A DNA stretch of 64,000 nt from the IMG/VR virus record IMGVR_UViG_3300017788_004205, positions 1 to 64,000 of that record. One strand, given 5' to 3'. The DNA is from a virus. Positions 14,079 through 26,849 of the stretch are shown one piece after another. Numbering within the stretch: position 1 is the first letter of the stretch; the number at the start of each line of letters is the position of its first letter. The position numbers and the translations under genes are program-made. The notes below the pieces were generated by a model. That model made no database searches. It was given only the letters and a program-made list of their open reading frames with translations, and was not told the origin of the DNA.

Positions 14079-14423
14079 ATGGCAAACTATGTTAGCAATA
14101 AAGAACTTTTGAAAGAAATCATAGAGTCTAAAAAAAGAGATGAATTAACCCCAAGAGCGGTTGAGCTCATTTGTAAAATGTCTCAGGAAATGTCAAAGGT
14201 TTTGAAGTATAAATACCCAGAAGATAGAGAAGATTGTATTGCTTCTGGCATAGCAGATGTTATCAAACACTGGAGAAATTTCAATCCAGAAAGGTCTGAA
14301 AATGTATTTGCTTATTATACACAAGTTATAAAAAATGGAATGGCAAAAACTTGGAATTTAATCCATCAACAAAAAGATAGTGATTTTATTTCGATAGATG
14401 ACGATATATTCCGTAATATTTAA
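14079..14423 (+). CDS. 55: Late-transcription sigma factor, gp55-like
   Basis: 114 residues, shorter than T4 gp55 (185). The core matches sigma region 2 as it appears in T4-type late factors: DCIASGIADVIKHWRNFNPE, then NVFAYYTQVIKNGMAKTWN. In T4 the gp55 protein replaces the host sigma and, with gp33 and the sliding clamp, directs RNA polymerase to a short TATAAATA promoter. This protein lacks most of the C-terminal region of T4 gp55. The recurring GATATATAGA motif in this genome is the obvious candidate target. The gene itself has a sigma-70-like promoter rather than the late motif, as expected for a factor needed before late genes are read. Confidence 0.75.
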   Translation: MANYVSNKELLKEIIESKKRDELTPRAVELICKMSQEMSKVLKYKYPEDREDCIASGIADVIKHWRNFNPERSENVFAYYTQVIKNGMAKTWNLIHQQKDSDFISIDDDIFRNI

Positions 14424-18901: not shown

Positions 18902-18929
18902 AGTTTTAATATTTCATAGGGTTTATTAG

Positions 18930-18960
18930 CCTGAGTAGTCTTTCGACTACTCAGGTTTTT
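18930..18960 (+). terminator. Strong hairpin terminator between convergent genes
   Basis: CCTGAGTAGTC, loop TTTC and GACTACTCAGG form a perfect 11-bp stem followed by TTTTTT on the plus strand. It sits between the plus-strand 84-residue gene and the end of the minus-strand IF-3 gene, whose stop is at 18960-18962, and probably serves both. Confidence 0.9.
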
Positions 18961-19478
18961 TATGGGAAAAGAGTGCATTGAATGGCATTTTTTTCTGACT
19001 TCACGCCAGATGTATTTTTATAAGATTCTTTAAGTTGATTTAATATATATTCCATTTTCTTGGAACCTAAATCATATTTAACAGTTTCTCTTCCCTTTAA
19101 AATAACTTTAACTAAAACATTATCACCTTGCTTCAAGAATTTTTGAACCATGCTTATTTTAGTTTTTAAGTCATTTTCACTGATAGCTATAGAAAATCTA
19201 ACTTCTTTTGTACTCTTTTTTTCTTTGGAATTTTTTTGTTCTATTTTCTCTCTTTTATATTTCCACTTTCCATAATCAATAAGTTTAATTACGGGAGGAT
19301 TTGCTTCTGGTGATATTTCAACCAAATCTAATTCCATAGATTCAGCTTTTTCTAAAGCTTCTTGTATAGACATAATTCCTAATTGGGAACCTTCTTCATC
19401 AACAACTCTTACCGTTTGGGATGTGATTTTTTGGTTTATCCTTGGTTCGGGGGTTTTAGTCTGTGGTTTTGTGTTCAT
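18960..19478 (-). CDS. infC: Translation initiation factor IF-3 homologue
   Basis: 172 residues, the size of bacterial IF-3. Both domains are present: an N-terminal RINQKITSQTVRVVDEEGSQ with MSIQEALEKAESMELDLVEIS and NPPVIKLIDYGKWKYKREK, then the C-terminal ribosome-binding domain KEVRFSIAISENDLKTK, VQKFLKQGDNVLVKVILKGRE. Bacterial IF-3 binds the 30S subunit, checks start-codon pairing and prevents subunit joining. The gene is the last of a minus-strand tail-gene operon, 25 bases after the 921-residue gene. A complete factor on a phage is unusual; it could steer initiation toward phage mRNAs, many of which here lack a Shine-Dalgarno site. That use is inference. Confidence 0.93.
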   Translation of the reverse strand: MNTKPQTKTPEPRINQKITSQTVRVVDEEGSQLGIMSIQEALEKAESMELDLVEISPEANPPVIKLIDYGKWKYKREKIEQKNSKEKKSTKEVRFSIAISENDLKTKISMVQKFLKQGDNVLVKVILKGRETVKYDLGSKKMEYILNQLKESYKNTSGVKSEKNAIQCTLFP

Positions 19479-19503: not shown

Positions 19504-22269
19504 TTAACTGTATAATTTAGCAAGACTGCTTTTAATTTCATTTGCAATTTGTCTTCCTATTATTCTTGCTTGCGCTTCGCTTATACCTGAAGATTCGCTC
19601 GGTATAGAAACTCCACCTCCGCCACCTGCTTCACCTTCTCCAGCTGGAGACATCTCTGGTGTTGCTTGTGCTGGTGTTTCAGTAGCTGTAGGAGTCTCTG
19701 GGGTTTGTGGAACTGCCTGTGAACTCATTATATCACCTAAGTTACTTATAGAACCTGATAGCTTCTGACTAAGTGGTTCTAAATTAACTTCATTCATCAT
19801 CAGTTCGGATTCAATAGCCATATTGGTTGTTTCAGGAATTTCAGAACTTTGAATTTTTGAAATAGCAGATGATAATTCTGGACTTTTTTGAGCTTGATTT
19901 TTTATGAGTATATCTTCCATTCCAGTACCAAATGGCATAAGTTCACTCGGAGGCATAGGAAGAGCTTGAGTAGCACCTGCACCCATCCCCATTTCCCCAA
20001 ATAAATTCATGTCTTTGAACATTTCTAAAGAAGTAAAACTTAGTTCAGGCGGTGGAGTCAACCCACCTTCTGCTTTTATAGCAGGAGGCATAGGTGGTAA
20101 TAACTCTCCTCCAAATGGGATTGCTTCATTTGCCATCGCACCTAAATTTTGAGGCATAGCCATTCCTTCTTTTGAAGTAATAGTTGCTGGCATAGGTGGT
20201 AAAGGAGGTACCACGATTCCTTGTGGACTGGTTGGAGATGTTGGTGCTGGTTTTGCACTTTGAGAAGCTCTGTTTTTTAATATATTTCTCATGATATCTT
20301 CAAATGTCTCAACTGGCTCTATAGCTTCTAATGCTGGTGCGTTTATATTTGCAATAGCTTCTGTTGGAGCTGGAACATTACCAGCTACTTCTTTTATCTC
20401 AGCTGTTGCAGTAACAACAGGGGGCATCGCACCAGTCGTTTCAAAATTAAATAAACTTTCAACTGGGGTTTCTGTACCAATTGTTCCTAATTCTGGTATA
20501 GAAGGCATAGGAATAGCTTGAGGAGGCATAGGCATTTGTTCTGCTCCGACCACCATCTGAGGAGGCATAGGCATAGCACCAGTAGTTTCAAAATTAAATA
20601 AACTTTCAACTGGTGTTTCTATCCCCATTCCAGCTATCATTGGAGGCGGAATTAAAGTAGGAGCTGTGGCTTGTTGAGTTAATATTTGAGTTGCTTCTAC
20701 TCCCGCTGTTGTAGGTGCAATAGGAAACGTTTTAGGTAAAACACCTCCCGTTAGAGCTTCAAATGAAAATGGAACCGTAGGAGGCATTTGTGGGGCTATT
20801 GGAGGCACTTTAACTTCTGCTGTTGTGGTAGCAGTAGGAGGAGTAGCTCCCGCTTCTGTTGGGGGCATGACTCCTGCTGGAAAAAGCCCACTTAAATCTT
20901 CTATTAGAGCTGGGGGTTGAACTAATCCTCCTTTAACTTCTACTCCTGCTTTTGGAGTAGGTGCTATTTCAGAGGGAATTAAGTTTTCTTCAAGCTCTTC
21001 TTCTTCTGGTTCTACCGCTCGACCATAAGCCATTTGGAACAATTCAGCTAAACTCTTTCTCTCTTTATCACCTTCTTTTGTCGGAGGTATTTGAGTTTGT
21101 AAATTTGTTGCTGTTGTTTCAGCTAAAGTTGTAGTAGCTTCTTCTGGCTTTTCTTCTCCTCCTCCAAATATTGAACTGAAAAATCCAGAAATTCCACCAC
21201 CTTGTTCTTCAGCTTCTTCTGTTGGTGGAGTAGGAGTTTCAAAATTTCTTAATTCTGTTTCGGTTATACCAAACGGTATCTCTTCCTCTTCTTCTTCTCC
21301 GCCACCAAATAAAGATGAAAATGTTGATTTAATACCTCCAAAAATATTCTCTACACCAATTGGAGATTCTGAAAATCCTTCTTCTTCGAAACCTACGAAC
21401 TCTTCTGGTAAAAATTCAGATATTCCAGTTTGAACAGCTTTTAACTCACCTTCCCCGAAGTTAGAAACTGAACTCATGAATTGCTCTGGTAAAAAAGATT
21501 CACTTTGAGCTTTTTCTGGAATTGAATACATGTTTTCATAAAAATCAGCAAATCCTTGTAAAAAAGGTTCGCCCATAGCTCCTGCTTGTTGTTCTTCGGC
21601 TCCTTGCATTTTAGGTGCCATAACATTCAAATCGGTTGTTATGTTTTCTTTTACTTTTTGTATTCCTTGTTCAACTTTCTTCAAAGATTCTTCATCTATA
21701 CCTAAATTTAACTTCGATTCTGTTGGTAGATTATTCAAATCTTCTTTTATGACGCTAACTTCATCTGCTATTTTTTCAACATTTGACAACCATTTTGACG
21801 ACCATTCAAAAGTAGATATAGTCTTAAAATCATTAACCAAATTTGAAAGCTTATCGATGTCAAACTGTTGAGTCGTTATCTGAGCAGTTTGTGGAGTTTG
21901 TGGAGTTTCTTTAGGGGTACTTATTTTATCAAGAACTCCTTCCAGATTTGACATTACTGATGTTAAATTACCAACAGTTTCTTCAGAAACCATACCTTCT
22001 GCTGGTGCGCCTTCTAATTTTGCTATTTCTGGTATTGTAGGAAGATTAGTAGTAAGAGTTCCACTCAAAGAAGCTTTTATGTTTTGAGCTTCTTTTGTGG
22101 CTTGATTGAGTACTTCCTTTTCTATCTTCTGAGCATCAGTAATTGAAATGGACATAACAGAAGAAAGAATATCGTCAACAGATGTTTCTATTGACTTATT
22201 TTCTTCTTCCATAGTTTTTGATATTATCTCATCTGATTGAATGAGATTATCTATTAATTTATCGTCCAT
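19504..22269 (-). CDS. Large low-complexity tail protein, tape-measure candidate
   Basis: 921 residues. The first 260 are helical and polar; the middle holds repeated FS-[ST]-[IL]-FGGGEE units and Pro/Ala/Met-rich segments, including two copies of ETPVESLFNFETTGAM; the end is helical (SEAQARIIGRQIANEI). It is not recognisable by family. The case for a tape measure is position: it follows a gp26-like gene and an overlapping small frame that look like frameshifted tail chaperones, overlapping the latter by 16 bases. Against it, the Pro-rich middle is poor for a continuous tape helix and no membrane segment is evident. It could instead be a baseplate or tail-tip protein. Confidence 0.6.
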   Translation of the reverse strand: MDDKLIDNLIQSDEIISKTMEEENKSIETSVDDILSSVMSISITDAQKIEKEVLNQATKEAQNIKASLSGTLTTNLPTIPEIAKLEGAPAEGMVSEETVGNLTSVMSNLEGVLDKISTPKETPQTPQTAQITTQQFDIDKLSNLVNDFKTISTFEWSSKWLSNVEKIADEVSVIKEDLNNLPTESKLNLGIDEESLKKVEQGIQKVKENITTDLNVMAPKMQGAEEQQAGAMGEPFLQGFADFYENMYSIPEKAQSESFLPEQFMSSVSNFGEGELKAVQTGISEFLPEEFVGFEEEGFSESPIGVENIFGGIKSTFSSLFGGGEEEEEEIPFGITETELRNFETPTPPTEEAEEQGGGISGFFSSIFGGGEEKPEEATTTLAETTATNLQTQIPPTKEGDKERKSLAELFQMAYGRAVEPEEEELEENLIPSEIAPTPKAGVEVKGGLVQPPALIEDLSGLFPAGVMPPTEAGATPPTATTTAEVKVPPIAPQMPPTVPFSFEALTGGVLPKTFPIAPTTAGVEATQILTQQATAPTLIPPPMIAGMGIETPVESLFNFETTGAMPMPPQMVVGAEQMPMPPQAIPMPSIPELGTIGTETPVESLFNFETTGAMPPVVTATAEIKEVAGNVPAPTEAIANINAPALEAIEPVETFEDIMRNILKNRASQSAKPAPTSPTSPQGIVVPPLPPMPATITSKEGMAMPQNLGAMANEAIPFGGELLPPMPPAIKAEGGLTPPPELSFTSLEMFKDMNLFGEMGMGAGATQALPMPPSELMPFGTGMEDILIKNQAQKSPELSSAISKIQSSEIPETTNMAIESELMMNEVNLEPLSQKLSGSISNLGDIMSSQAVPQTPETPTATETPAQATPEMSPAGEGEAGGGGGVSIPSESSGISEAQARIIGRQIANEIKSSLAKLYS

Positions 22270-22556
22270 TTATCTGGGCTTACATTTTTATTTATTTCAA
22301 AGATTTTTCCAACGTTCATATTTGGATTATCTCGTTTTGACCTTGCTTCTTTAATCACTTCATACCATTGAATTGTTTTCTCAATGATGGTTTCATATCT
22401 CCAATACGGTAATTCTTCAAGTTCACTTATACTGAATCCTTGTCGTATAAGAGTATAAAGGTTGTCTTCAAGTCTATCGAGTGATACTTTGTAAGTCTGG
22501 AATAAAGAGAGACTTAATTCCTCCTCGAAAGGAACTTGGGGCAGTGACCTCGGCAC
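22254..22556 (-). CDS. Small tail chaperone frame, probably expressed by frameshift from the gp26-like gene
   Basis: The frame is open from about 22604 and ends at 22254; the only local start is GTG at 22556 with no ribosome site, 83 bases inside the preceding gene. Its C-terminal part (IRQGFSISELEELPYWRYETI) looks like the small helical domains encoded between tail-hub and tape-measure genes. A TCTCTC run at 22512-22507 with GAGGAGG at 22526-22520 would allow a -2 slip that re-pairs CTC with CTC. This would join residues 1-335 of the gp26-like protein to 84 residues of this frame, as in tail chaperones of phages Mu and lambda. Free translation from GTG cannot be excluded. Confidence 0.55.
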   Translation of the reverse strand: MPRSLPQVPFEEELSLSLFQTYKVSLDRLEDNLYTLIRQGFSISELEELPYWRYETIIEKTIQWYEVIKEARSKRDNPNMNVGKIFEINKNVSPDKWTIN

Positions 22557-23511
22557 CGCACTTTGAACATTTATGTCTAATTCTTGAAACAGTAGATTTT
22601 TTAATCATATCTACTATTCTGACAAATGCTGCAAATTGTGATGTAGTCCAAGTCAAAGAATCTTCGGACTGTGATTCGTAAAAATCTTCGGTTATAGACA
22701 TCCAATTATCCATGATGTATGGAGCAATAGTAGCAAATGCCTTATCGTAAGATTTTCTTTGTCTGATTTTACTTGTGATGTATTTCTGAACAAATGCTCT
22801 CATTCCGATTGAAGGTAAGGTTAAACCAACATCTGATTGCATAGGGTCATTAAATTTAACTTGAAATATTTTTGCTTCTGGGTTGTAATACTTCATAAGT
22901 TCTTCATTAAATGTAAAGAACTCAAAGTCTGACCATTTTAGTGTTTTTTCATCACTATTTCCACATGAACATGAAATATTGCTTACGATTCTTGATTCAC
23001 CATTTTTGAATGTAGCATCTCTAACATGAAGTATAACTGATAGTTTATCAATATCTTTAAGGTTCTTAAAAGAAGGCGACATATTTGGAACATTAAATCT
23101 GACAAGATTTTCCAAAATATAATCGAAAGCATCATTTAATTCAAGTGGGTTTGTATCATCAACAGTCGAAAAGTGTCGGATGATTGATACTGTCGCAGGT
23201 TTGATAAGAAGTCTTGAACCTTCTGGGTAAAATGACCCTTGAGTTGGTAAAGATTCCATAGGAACTTCATACCAACCTATGTCGAAATTCTGATGAACAC
23301 TTCTAACAGCAACATTCTCAGGATTAAAATCATTTTGAACCATTTGAGCAGGTTCTGGTGCTGAAATTGGTTCTTCTTTTTTTTCTTTTGGCTTTGGAGG
23401 TGGAATATTACTGGTTGGTAATGCCTGCTCTTCTCCAACTTCTCTAACGGAGTTAAATTGGCTATCACGAGCCTCCATAATTTTTCTTGCTTCATCATCA
23501 CTTATAGGCAT
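22474..23511 (-). CDS. Baseplate hub assembly protein, gp26-like (T4_baseplate type)
   Basis: 345 residues. Residues 1-75 are a polar, Pro-rich leader. From about 80, WYEVPMESLPTQGSFYPEGS, LLIKPATVSIIRHFS and NDAFDYILENLV follow the pattern of the T4 gp26-like hub proteins. A cysteine set CSCGN near 185 and CSKCG near 320 suggests one zinc site, known in several hub-assembly proteins. By family it helps assemble the central baseplate hub. It is first in the minus-strand operon with two late-type motifs upstream, and its end overlaps a second frame that may be fused by frameshifting. Confidence 0.55.
   Translation of the reverse strand: MPISDDEARKIMEARDSQFNSVREVGEEQALPTSNIPPPKPKEKKEEPISAPEPAQMVQNDFNPENVAVRSVHQNFDIGWYEVPMESLPTQGSFYPEGSRLLIKPATVSIIRHFSTVDDTNPLELNDAFDYILENLVRFNVPNMSPSFKNLKDIDKLSVILHVRDATFKNGESRIVSNISCSCGNSDEKTLKWSDFEFFTFNEELMKYYNPEAKIFQVKFNDPMQSDVGLTLPSIGMRAFVQKYITSKIRQRKSYDKAFATIAPYIMDNWMSITEDFYESQSEDSLTWTTSQFAAFVRIVDMIKKSTVSRIRHKCSKCGAEVTAPSSFRGGIKSLFIPDLQSITR
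22507..22526 (-). promoter_or_regulatory. Candidate -2 programmed frameshift site
   Basis: On the minus strand GAGGAGG is followed after 7 bases by TCTCTC, with ten bases between the purine run and the slipping CTC codon. The zero frame reads AAG TCT CTC TTT; a -2 slip of the CTC tRNA re-pairs perfectly on CTC and enters the small frame ending at 22254. Spacing suits a Shine-Dalgarno-type stimulator. Confidence 0.5.
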
Positions 23512-23548: not shown

Positions 23549-23558
23549 TGTATATATC
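23549..23558 (-). promoter_or_regulatory. Late-type promoter motif (GATATATACA)
   Basis: Minus-strand copy 38 bases before the ATG at 23511 of the tail operon. Confidence 0.55.
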
Positions 23559-23782: not shown

Positions 23783-25783
23783 ATGGCTGGAGCACAAGGA
23801 CCCCAAGGGCCGATAGGAAATCAAGGAGCATCGATTGCAGGTTCGCAAGGGCCGACTGGTATAGGACTGCAAGGAGTACCTGGTAGTCAAGGAAATCAAG
23901 GTTCCGTTGGAACCCAAGGTAATCAGGGTAATTCTGGCCCTCAAGGAGTTCAAGGTAACCAAGGCAATCAAGGTACCCAAGGCATCCAAGGTAATCAAGG
24001 AAATCAAGGCAATCAAGGTAACCAAGGCTCTCAGGGAGCTCAAGGTGTTCAAGGCGTACAAGGCCCACAAGGAACTCAAGGAATACGTGGAATTCAAGGA
24101 ACTCAAGGGAATACTGGTGGGACTGGGAACCAAGGTAGAACTGGTATACAAGGCCCTCAAGGATTTCAAGGCCCGAAAGGAGACCAAGGAGTTCAAGGAA
24201 CCCAAGGAACTCAAGGTGTTCAAGGTATAATTGGTACTCAAGGTGTTCAAGGTGGAAGTGGAGGTCAAGGAACTGTTGGTAGACAGGGTAATCAAGGTAA
24301 TCAAGGTTCTCAAGGAACTGGAGACCAAGGTGTTCAAGGTAATCAAGGTAACCAAGGTAGACAAGGTAATCAAGGAAATCAGGGTAACCAAGGTAACCAA
24401 GGAACGGGTGCTCAAGGTAATCAAGGAAATCAGGGCAATCAAGGAAATCAGGGTAATCAAGGAAATCAAGGAACAGGCGCTCAAGGTAATCAAGGTGACC
24501 AAGGAAACCAAGGCAATCAAGGCCCTCTCGGTAACCAAGGGCCAAAAGGAACTCAAGGTAACCAAGGAAATCAAGGCAATCAAGGTAATCAAGGTAATCA
24601 AGGAAACACAGGATTAGGAAACCAAGGTAACCAAGGCAATCAAGGTAGACAAGGCAACCAAGGCAATCAAGGTAATCAAGGCCCGCAAGGAAGTCAAGGT
24701 AACCAAGGCAATCAAGGCGCAAGTGGAGCTCAGGGTAATCAAGGCAATCAAGGTAATCAAGGCCCGCAGGGAAGTCAAGGTAATCAAGGAAATCAAGGTG
24801 CAAGTGGAGCTCAGGGTAACCAAGGCAATCAAGGTAGACAAGGCAATCAAGGAAATCAAGGGCCTCAGGGTAACCAAGGGAATCAAGGCTCACAAGGACC
24901 TCAGGGTACTCAAGGCGTTCAAGGTATAGGTGGAGTTTTACTTGGAGTGACTACAAGTGATAATATATTATCCCCTAATAATACTATTAATGCAGGTAGA
25001 ATACTTGTTAATTCTTCTTCTTTAAATGCGGATTTAGTAATACAACCAAAGGGTTCTGGGGCAATAGTTGCTCAATTACCTGATGGCACTTCAACAGGCG
25101 GAAATAAGAGAGGTCTTAATTCTGTTGATTTACAAACAAGCAGAGCGAGTGCAACGCATGTTGCTTCAGGCACCAACTCATTTATAGCATCAGGTGAAAG
25201 AAATACAGCATCTGGGCCTTATTCTTCTGTTTTAGGTGGTTATTCTAATGTATCATCTGGTGATTATTCTGTTGGTTTAGGTGGTCTTTCAAATACAGCA
25301 TCTGGTGATTATTCAGCTACAATAGGCTCTGGGGCTAATGCTCTTAACTATGGAGAATTTACACATGCTTCTGGTTCATTTGCAACAAATGGAGATGCTC
25401 AAAGTTCTTGGTTGATATATAGAGGGACGACAGTTGGTTTAACATCCAATATTTTGTATTTGGATGGAATTTCAGAAACAGCTTCATTACCTAATGATAC
25501 AACTTGGTTTGTTACATGCTATGTTGTAGCAAGAAGAACTGATGCAAATGGTGAATCGTCTGGTGGTAAATTTGAATTTGTGATAGACAGAGGGGCAACA
25601 GCAGGTACAACTGCACTTGCTGGCTCTGTTGTAGAAACTATCATCCATAAAGATGATAACACTTGGACTATAACTGCAACTGCAAATACAACATATGGAG
25701 GCCCGCAAATTATAGCATCGGGAGCTTCAGCTAAAACTATTAACTGGGTGGTTTATGCACATGTTGTTCAGGTAACTGGATAA
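23783..25783 (+). CDS. Collagen-like trimeric fibre protein
   Basis: 666 residues. Residues about 5-385 are uninterrupted Gly-x-y triplets, mostly G-N-Q and G-x-Q, a phage-type collagen stalk. Asn/Gln/Thr replace the proline that is typical of animal collagen. After it come a short beta segment and YadA-head-like repeats (ASGPYSSVLGGYSNVSSGD, GDYSVGLGGLSNTASGD, GDYSATIGSGAN), then a C-terminal beta domain of about 150 residues that probably binds a receptor or caps the trimer. It would be a virion fibre or decoration. It has a late-type promoter and is followed 20 bases later by a small SH3-like protein gene. The stalk contains an 81-base tandem duplication. Confidence 0.85.
   Translation: MAGAQGPQGPIGNQGASIAGSQGPTGIGLQGVPGSQGNQGSVGTQGNQGNSGPQGVQGNQGNQGTQGIQGNQGNQGNQGNQGSQGAQGVQGVQGPQGTQGIRGIQGTQGNTGGTGNQGRTGIQGPQGFQGPKGDQGVQGTQGTQGVQGIIGTQGVQGGSGGQGTVGRQGNQGNQGSQGTGDQGVQGNQGNQGRQGNQGNQGNQGNQGTGAQGNQGNQGNQGNQGNQGNQGTGAQGNQGDQGNQGNQGPLGNQGPKGTQGNQGNQGNQGNQGNQGNTGLGNQGNQGNQGRQGNQGNQGNQGPQGSQGNQGNQGASGAQGNQGNQGNQGPQGSQGNQGNQGASGAQGNQGNQGRQGNQGNQGPQGNQGNQGSQGPQGTQGVQGIGGVLLGVTTSDNILSPNNTINAGRILVNSSSLNADLVIQPKGSGAIVAQLPDGTSTGGNKRGLNSVDLQTSRASATHVASGTNSFIASGERNTASGPYSSVLGGYSNVSSGDYSVGLGGLSNTASGDYSATIGSGANALNYGEFTHASGSFATNGDAQSSWLIYRGTTVGLTSNILYLDGISETASLPNDTTWFVTCYVVARRTDANGESSGGKFEFVIDRGATAGTTALAGSVVETIIHKDDNTWTITATANTTYGGPQIIASGASAKTINWVVYAHVVQVTG
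24661..24823 (+). repeat. 81-base tandem duplication in the collagen stalk
   Basis: Two copies of a 27-residue unit (ending S-G-A-Q) lie exactly 81 bases apart: CCCGCA at 24682 recurs at 24763 and AGTGGAGCT at 24722 recurs at 24803. Synonymous codons differ between copies. The whole stalk is a looser 9-base GGN-AAY-CAR repeat. Confidence 0.8.
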
Positions 25784-26225: not shown

Positions 26226-26849
26226 ATGAAAATAGCGGGAATAGATTTTTCTATAAATCACCCTTCGGTTTGTGTTTACGACACTGAAACAAAAGAATGT
26301 CAGTTTTATGTTTTTCCAAAAGAAAGGACAAAGGGACATTCTAATTTAAATAATACAGAAGTTAATATTATTGATATTCAAAGGTATGATGTAGCCAATG
26401 GCTTATCATCAACGGAGAGAGAGAGACTTTCTACCTTGAATGCTATTATTCTCGCAGAAGGTATAATGAAAGCTTTACCTGATGATATAAATGCAGTTGC
26501 TCTTGAAAACTTAGCATTCTCAGCAAGTTCTAATAGACTTGCAGAAATAGCAGGGTATCAGTATATTTTTAGAGAAAGACTAACGAACAGATATGGAACT
26601 AATAATTTGTATTTCTTTGCGGCTATGAGCGTTAAAGCAAAGGCTGGTAGCGGAAAGTTCGATAAAAACCAAATGATTGAAAAGTTCTTAGATAGAGAAT
26701 TTACTGGCGTATCTTTGAAAATACAGGATAAATTAGAATCAGAAACTCAATTTTTCAAGAAAACAAAAAATTGGATAAAGCCGATTGATGATATAGCGGA
26801 CTCATTTTGGATTGCAAAATGTTTACAATTTGTTTTAGAAAGTAATTGA
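26226..26849 (+). CDS. RuvC-like Holliday junction resolvase
   Basis: 207 residues. The RNase H-fold motifs of RuvC are visible: GIDFSINHPSV with the first aspartate (D7), the glutamate in VALENLAF (about 96) and the C-terminal PIDDIADSFWIAK with two aspartates. By family it resolves four-way junctions and branched DNA before packaging. T4 uses the unrelated endonuclease VII for this, so this would be a non-orthologous replacement, as in many other large phages. It starts 14 bases after the preceding gene and lacks a clear ribosome site. Confidence 0.8.
   Translation: MKIAGIDFSINHPSVCVYDTETKECQFYVFPKERTKGHSNLNNTEVNIIDIQRYDVANGLSSTERERLSTLNAIILAEGIMKALPDDINAVALENLAFSASSNRLAEIAGYQYIFRERLTNRYGTNNLYFFAAMSVKAKAGSGKFDKNQMIEKFLDREFTGVSLKIQDKLESETQFFKKTKNWIKPIDDIADSFWIAKCLQFVLESN

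Follow-up and report, generated by a model that had tools for sequence, protein, structure and literature searches.

A phage-borne initiation factor IF-3 of a separate lineage, encoded last in a putative late tail operon of a large phage with a probable Bacteroidota host

Why does a phage encode translation initiation factor IF-3, and what would the protein do at the end of a group of tail-region genes? The question is raised by the window, a stretch of 64,000 nucleotides (positions 1 to 64,000 of IMG/VR record IMGVR_UViG_3300017788_004205). It carries an infC-like gene of 172 aa at 18960..19478 on the minus strand, which starts with ATG and has no Shine-Dalgarno (SD) site upstream. The initial annotation described a full two-domain IF-3 of 172 residues, and the ORF translation and profile searches confirmed it. 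The product matched Pfam IF3_N (3.8e-29; 101 bits, cut-off 26.9) and IF3_C (1.2e-17; 64 bits, cut-off 34.8), PHROG 9787 'translation initiation factor' (3.1e-39) and the infC profile TIGR00168 (151 bits, cut-off 60), and these matches are far beyond chance. An AF2 model with a mean pLDDT of 84.2 has the two-domain fold and linker of solved IF-3 structures (5lms_X, TM 0.72; 1tig, TMt 0.86), and its top solved-structure matches are IF-3 throughout, several of them 30S-bound. The pTM is 0.49, so the arrangement of the two domains relative to each other is uncertain.

The virus record has 86,812 bases, and IMG/VR classes it as lacking end repeats or as probably fragmentary. A relative with the same gene order measures 199.9 kb, by which the record is a fragment of a larger phage. 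The gene order around IF-3 is shared by the contigs L004 (65.7 kb), L005 (124 kb) and L006 (199.9 kb). L005 and L006 have 1 difference in 16,504 bases, which leaves three lineages in total, including that of the window. IF-3 is kept in all three contigs bearing its flanks; these relatives were found via IF-3 or its neighbours, and every search gave the same three contigs, so the sample is small and partly circular. The 114-aa and 207-aa genes near IF-3, used as queries, likewise returned these three and no others. Contamination by a bacterial contig was ruled out, because three other records have IF-3 amid identically ordered phage genes and the cellular setting infC-rpmI-rplT is missing: neither rpmI nor rplT lies beside the window gene.

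The wider relationship of the phage was read from its portal and helicase. The portal (T4 gp20 type) is nearest to that of LR756500 (462 kb; 38.9% identity), and so is the UvsW helicase (43.3%); the next-nearest for both are records of 634-735 kb and Prevotella Lak phages. These two proteins place the phage beside the huge Bacteroidota phages of the Mahaphage/Lak type, and the host is probably a member of the Bacteroidota. By their size and source, and not by any label of their records, these accessions presumably correspond to the huge-phage clade of PMC7162821.

IF-3 is the last of four ORFs in a minus-strand run (23511-22474, 22556-22254, 22269-19504 and 19478-18960). The first gene, at 22474..23511 (-), encodes a conserved tail-region protein of 345 aa (phrog_36717, function unknown). 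A 100-aa ORF at 22254..22556 (-) overlaps its end by 83 nt in another frame, an arrangement common to relatives. A Pro-rich protein of 921 aa without a family, encoded at 19504..22269 (-), comes directly before IF-3, as it does in L004 and L005/L006, and 25 nt separate its end from the IF-3 start. Profile searches, Pfam and PHROG among them, matched no family for the 100-aa and 921-aa ORFs, and structure prediction of the 345-aa protein from three sequences gave a pLDDT of only 41. A homologue of the 345-aa protein stands directly behind a tail-sheath gene in LR756502 and LR745206. The initial description of IF-3 as the last gene of a minus-strand tail cluster is thus correct for the gene order; the word 'tail' is reasonable for the first gene, and the two middle ORFs have no family to carry it. 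Below IF-3, a strong hairpin (18928..18957; -20 kcal/mol, z -7.4) lies between the convergent ends of IF-3 and an 84-aa gene. Its U-run is on the side of the convergent plus-strand gene, so the hairpin is a terminator of that gene and may serve both.

The unit is probably expressed late. A promoter-like motif, GATATATAC, precedes the unit at 23550..23558 (-), at -47 relative to its first gene. L004 and L006 also have it at -47 of the 345-aa gene, so that three lineages share the position, and no copy adjoins IF-3. Across the window, 18 of 94 ORFs have GATATAT upstream, mostly between -30 and -61, against 0.83 expected from dinucleotide shuffles and 5 on the reverse strand. The GATATATA motif was found via enriched 7-mers on the same data and was not predicted beforehand; its recurrence at -47 in L004 and L006 checks it in part. 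T4 late promoters have the consensus TATAAATA. The phage-wide form of the present motif is GATATATA[GC]A, unlike that of T4, and a T4-type TATAAAT late promoter was absent upstream of the ORFs (0/94). A gp55-like late sigma factor of 114 aa is encoded at 14079..14423 (+) (phrog_234, 2.9e-15; Sigma70_r2 at the cut-off), and it is strongly conserved, with 83-94% identity within the clade. Together, the -47 motif in three lineages and the sigma factor gene make late expression of the unit likely. The simplest reading is one late operon that ends with IF-3, in which case IF-3 itself would be a late product.

The place of IF-3 in this unit is specific to the window clade. The 345-aa gene was present in all 10 records searched, and IF-3 follows it in the window clade only (in none of six relatives whose tail region was read). 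LR756500, LR756501 and LR756504 also encode IF-3, which lies elsewhere (IF-3 and tail gene at 57 vs 178 kb, 50 vs 603 kb and 110 vs 161 kb, respectively). No IF-3 was found in LR756502, LR745206, Lak-C1 and Lak-B1 (0/4; two Lak records searched), or in 15 portal-kin contigs of 29-256 kb, each perhaps a fragment, searched out of the 80 loci listed. The portal recurs at 82-85% identity in 11 contigs; the two longest (29 and 30 kb) of the 8 short ones were searched and end before the IF-3 place. Co-production with tail proteins could mean that IF-3 is packaged, or that it binds RNA or DNA during assembly and does not act in translation. The last place in a tail unit agrees with such a role, and packaging has been suggested for phage bS21 in a part of PMC9723584. 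We consider it very improbable, since the sister huge phages have IF-3 far from the tail gene and residues that contact the 30S subunit, such as Tyr75, are kept.

IF-3 identity among the three lineages is 61-63%. The dN/dS values for the three pairs are 0.27, 0.21 and 0.15, with dS of 1.1-1.8, near or above saturation, so the ratios are rough. Judged by these ratios, the window IF-3 is under purifying selection. Two trees were built, the first with 35 rows and the second with 32 after the long branches L032, L038 and L043 had been removed. Eight of 26 genome-scan loci entered the trees, Bacteroidota were represented by three Bacteroidales only, and Planctomycetota took too large a share, an effect of the query-derived peptide patterns with which the genomes had been scanned. 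The window clade (100/99) stands on its own stem of about 1.4 changes per site. It groups loosely with two Rak2-like phages, Kaldavass and Vibrio phage 2.275.O (81/91; 85/92; not starred), where long branches may attract each other. The IF-3s of LR756500, LR756501 and LR756504 group with Bacteroidales IF-3 (100/99).

In AU tests, with groups named after the tree was seen, one clade of the window proteins with the three huge-phage rows received p 0.017, which disfavours an acquisition shared with the sister huge phages. Joining the window clade and the three huge-phage rows with Bacteroidales gave p 0.196, and placing the window clade with Planctomycetota or Anoxybacillus gave p 0.382 and p 0.080. 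The window IF-3 may thus have an old Bacteroidota origin. Among the hosts sampled, the phylogeny against host and phage homologues that the initial annotation had called for revealed no very recent host copy in decay; a dN/dS of 0.15-0.27 and the long separate stem rule this out. These huge phages, which a section of PMC7162821 reports, resemble the window phage in carrying a full IF-3 and belong to the same phage group by portal and UvsW. Their IF-3s differ from the window's in grouping with Bacteroidota IF-3 and in lying far from the tail gene, so that neither the acquisition nor the position is the same. This points to more than one gain of IF-3, or to its relocation, among close huge-phage lineages.

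Several 'phage' IF-3 records look like bacterial chromosome DNA (Enterococcus, Listeria, Staphylococcus and the fecal MT83xxxx scaffolds), and the IF-3 of MT837394 is 91% identical to a Phocaeicola IF-3. Some of these records stand as tree rows, and nothing was drawn from their labels. Phage IF-3 counts from such collections need cleaning.

The window clade (3 rows) was compared with 16 cellular IF-3 rows. It retains Arg14, Asn16, Asp52, Pro62-Pro63, Tyr70, Lys72, Tyr75, Lys94-Glu95, Asp106, Phe117, Gly121 and Gly132-Arg133, and the CTD of the window protein has a net charge of +7. With cellular infC it has fold, domains and core residues in common. It differs in having no rpmI/rplT neighbour, an altered hairpin tip, no C-terminal tail and a linker two residues shorter than in the cellular product. 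Among platform and codon-region residues, Tyr75, Arg133 and a basic residue at 131 are kept, position 99 is Ser, as in Anoxybacillus, and position 168 is Asn. Tyr75 is a fidelity residue that contacts the platform, according to a passage of PMC5037330.

One reading of this conservation is a plain dosage supplement: the phage protein would do precisely the work of host IF-3 without favouring phage mRNAs, and would be kept because host IF-3 becomes limiting or degraded late in infection. The conserved fold and core residues and the purifying selection agree with it, as does a protein of 172 aa without extra domains or an N-terminal extension. It is possible but rather unlikely in our view: three phages share one departure from all 16 cellular rows at the hairpin tip and C-terminal tail, and a long distance separates their lineage from the cellular IF-3s sampled, both of which suggest specialisation.

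At the hairpin tip, Gly167-Arg/Lys168 is replaced by Lys-Asn in 3/3 window-clade rows, so that residue 168 is Asn in all three and Arg or Lys in 16/16 cellular rows; the short cellular tail beyond Pro176 is missing in the same 3/3 rows. Asn168 and the missing tail could alter IF-3 activity. The basic charge has moved by one residue and is not lost, and Asn168 also occurs in the otherwise ordinary IF-3s of LR756500, LR756511 and Kaldavass, so an alteration is claimed here and not a loss of function. These changes could also point to host shut-off, in which the variant would compete with the host's own IF-3 on the 30S subunit and block or mis-set initiation on host mRNAs. In part of PMC5037330, Arg159 of Thermus thermophilus is placed near the start codon and the anticodon stem loop, and by alignment and numbering it would correspond to Arg168 of Escherichia coli, the very residue changed here along with the absent tail. 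Shut-off is nevertheless improbable, because a place in a late operon fits early shut-off poorly, the charge is preserved, and ordinary phage IF-3s share Asn168.

The initial annotation had noted that many genes lack a clear SD site, that several start with GTG or TTG, and that the phage IF-3 could favour such leaders and starts. The 4-base SD core is absent from 75/92 upstream regions in the window, which bears out the first remark for most genes, but 17/92 have one against 4.4 expected; SD is thus a minority mode in the window and not absent. Non-ATG starts number 16/93 with the longest frame taken, but only 3/80 in the strict sense (ORF of at least 100 aa, no ATG in the next 25 codons). Strict cases amount to 3/80 and 4/36 in the window clade and to 0-2 of 30-38 elsewhere. 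The IF-3 gene itself has ATG in the window and GTG with AGGAA upstream in L004 and L005/L006.

The proposed tie between IF-3 and such leaders or starts found no support in the comparison of relatives. SD-bearing genes are 4/38, 1/35 and 1/32 in huge-phage relatives without IF-3 and 0/35, 3/30 and 3/36 in those with it; the window clade is richer (14/80 and 8/36). IF-3-less kin are equally SD-poor, so IF-3 is not required for SD-poor mRNAs, and non-ATG starts in the strict sense are rare in all sets. The comparison does not support IF-3 as a cause or companion of SD loss and suggests that IF-3 does not track it. SD frequency at ATG-start ORFs was also set against internal ATGs in nine sets, with uncorrected p values and 40-57 kb of each relative read. 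An excess was found in the window-clade records G000 (13/68 vs 39/482, p 0.006) and G001 (11/44 vs 25/251, p 0.008), and L004 gave 2/15 vs 6/81 (p 0.36). No excess was found in LR756500 (0/35), LR756501 (3/34), LR756504 (2/39), LR756502 (4/34), LR745206 (1/35) and Lak-B1 (1/29). About one gene in five in the window clade keeps a real SD site, and the huge-phage kin are without such an excess. This minority may reflect a host whose anti-SD is less hidden, or a group of genes under special regulation.

According to sections of PMC9976891, SD poverty characterises Bacteroidia hosts, in whose ribosomes the anti-SD is hidden, and with 30S subunits of Flavobacterium johnsoniae an SD-less mRNA formed complexes in a strictly IF3-dependent manner. 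This dependence keeps a softer form of the SD-less-leader idea alive. We lean, by somewhat better than even, towards a functional IF-3 of old capture in a late tail operon, acting on the host 30S subunit for phage late mRNAs. This lineage of large Bacteroidota phages would have acquired IF-3 in the distant past and fixed it at the end of the operon, which the late sigma factor would read from the GATATATA-type promoter before the first gene, so that the production of IF-3 would coincide with the bulk demand for virion proteins. The protein would bind the host 30S subunit as cellular IF-3 does. With IF-3 on the 30S pool raised or replaced, subunits would stay available for further rounds, and phage late mRNAs would be helped to initiate; most of these lack an SD and are proposed to be IF-3-dependent on ribosomes of this type. 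At the level of sequence, the identity, both domains, selection, fixed place, promoter-like motif and late sigma gene are established, and late timing, 30S binding and an effect on phage mRNAs are probable extensions of them. The SD enrichment of the clade, unlike a typical Bacteroidia-adapted phage, speaks against this explanation, as do the equally SD-poor kin that lack IF-3 and the changed hairpin tip and tail.

Phage IF-3 genes and their general role are already published. Redirected initiation was proposed for huge-phage IF1/IF3 in 2020 (in part of PMC7162821), and passages of other papers report IF-3 in CBB, Rak2, 121Q and others (PMC5259590), in few group 2.2 jumbo phages, such as the Atu_ph07 protein AUZ94813.1 (PMC7824862), and in a Sinorhizobium phage (PMC11242549). 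The Rak2/CBB/121Q-like and Atu_ph07-like jumbo phages resemble the window phage in bearing a full IF-3 but belong to other phage groups with other hosts, and their IF-3 neighbours are Clp or protease, S21 and L7/L12-like genes, unlike those in the window. Kaldavass does have a virion structural gene three genes downstream of IF-3. The literature search found no paper testing a phage IF-3, although such work may still exist. What is new is the separate lineage, the late-operon setting and the altered C-terminal hairpin and tail. The window IF-3 is thus a true, selected, phage-borne protein of a known kind in a separate lineage, a test bed rather than something categorically new. Its gene belongs to a defined unit behind a candidate late promoter, and SD-less initiation in the probable host group depends on IF-3, which makes the question of why phages carry IF-3 testable.

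Phage bS21 is a close parallel in Bacteroidetes phages. According to parts of PMC9723584, it lies in the virion cluster and is expressed late. Like the window IF-3, it is initiation-related, is encoded on the reverse strand among structural genes and has a proposed late action on Bacteroidetes ribosomes. It is a different protein, and no S21 was found in four window-clade records (G000-G003, fragments); the same fragments held no IF-1, and the scanned stretches of the clade's fragment records held no tRNA. A bolder form of the preferred explanation is a late translational switch, in which an IF-3 of separate acquisition, specialised by remodelling of the hairpin that faces the codon and produced together with the tail proteins, would take over the Bacteroidota 30S subunit, favour the mostly SD-less late messages of the phage and replace, in this clade, the bS21 role of other Bacteroidota phages. 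We regard this form as unlikely.

The neighbourhood offers some further observations. The overlap DNA of the 345-aa and 100-aa ORFs is almost frozen across three lineages (window 22254-22556 / 22474-23511 (-); L004 4356-5598; L005 4531-5767). An overlapping ORF in another frame also follows the 345-aa gene in LR756502, LR745206, Lak-C1 and LR756504. The two ORFs are candidates for a tail chaperone pair made by frameshifting or dual coding; the overlap in the window, L004 and L005 showed no canonical -1 slippery heptamer in the right phase. L005/L006 carry additional convergent genes (L005 8507-10186 (-)) between IF-3 and the conserved gene that follows; these are absent from the window and, judged by eye, look like a methyltransferase and glycosyltransferases. 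A RuvC-like resolvase is encoded at 26226-26849 (+) (phrog_159, 1e-11), near a collagen-like fibre gene at 23783-25783.
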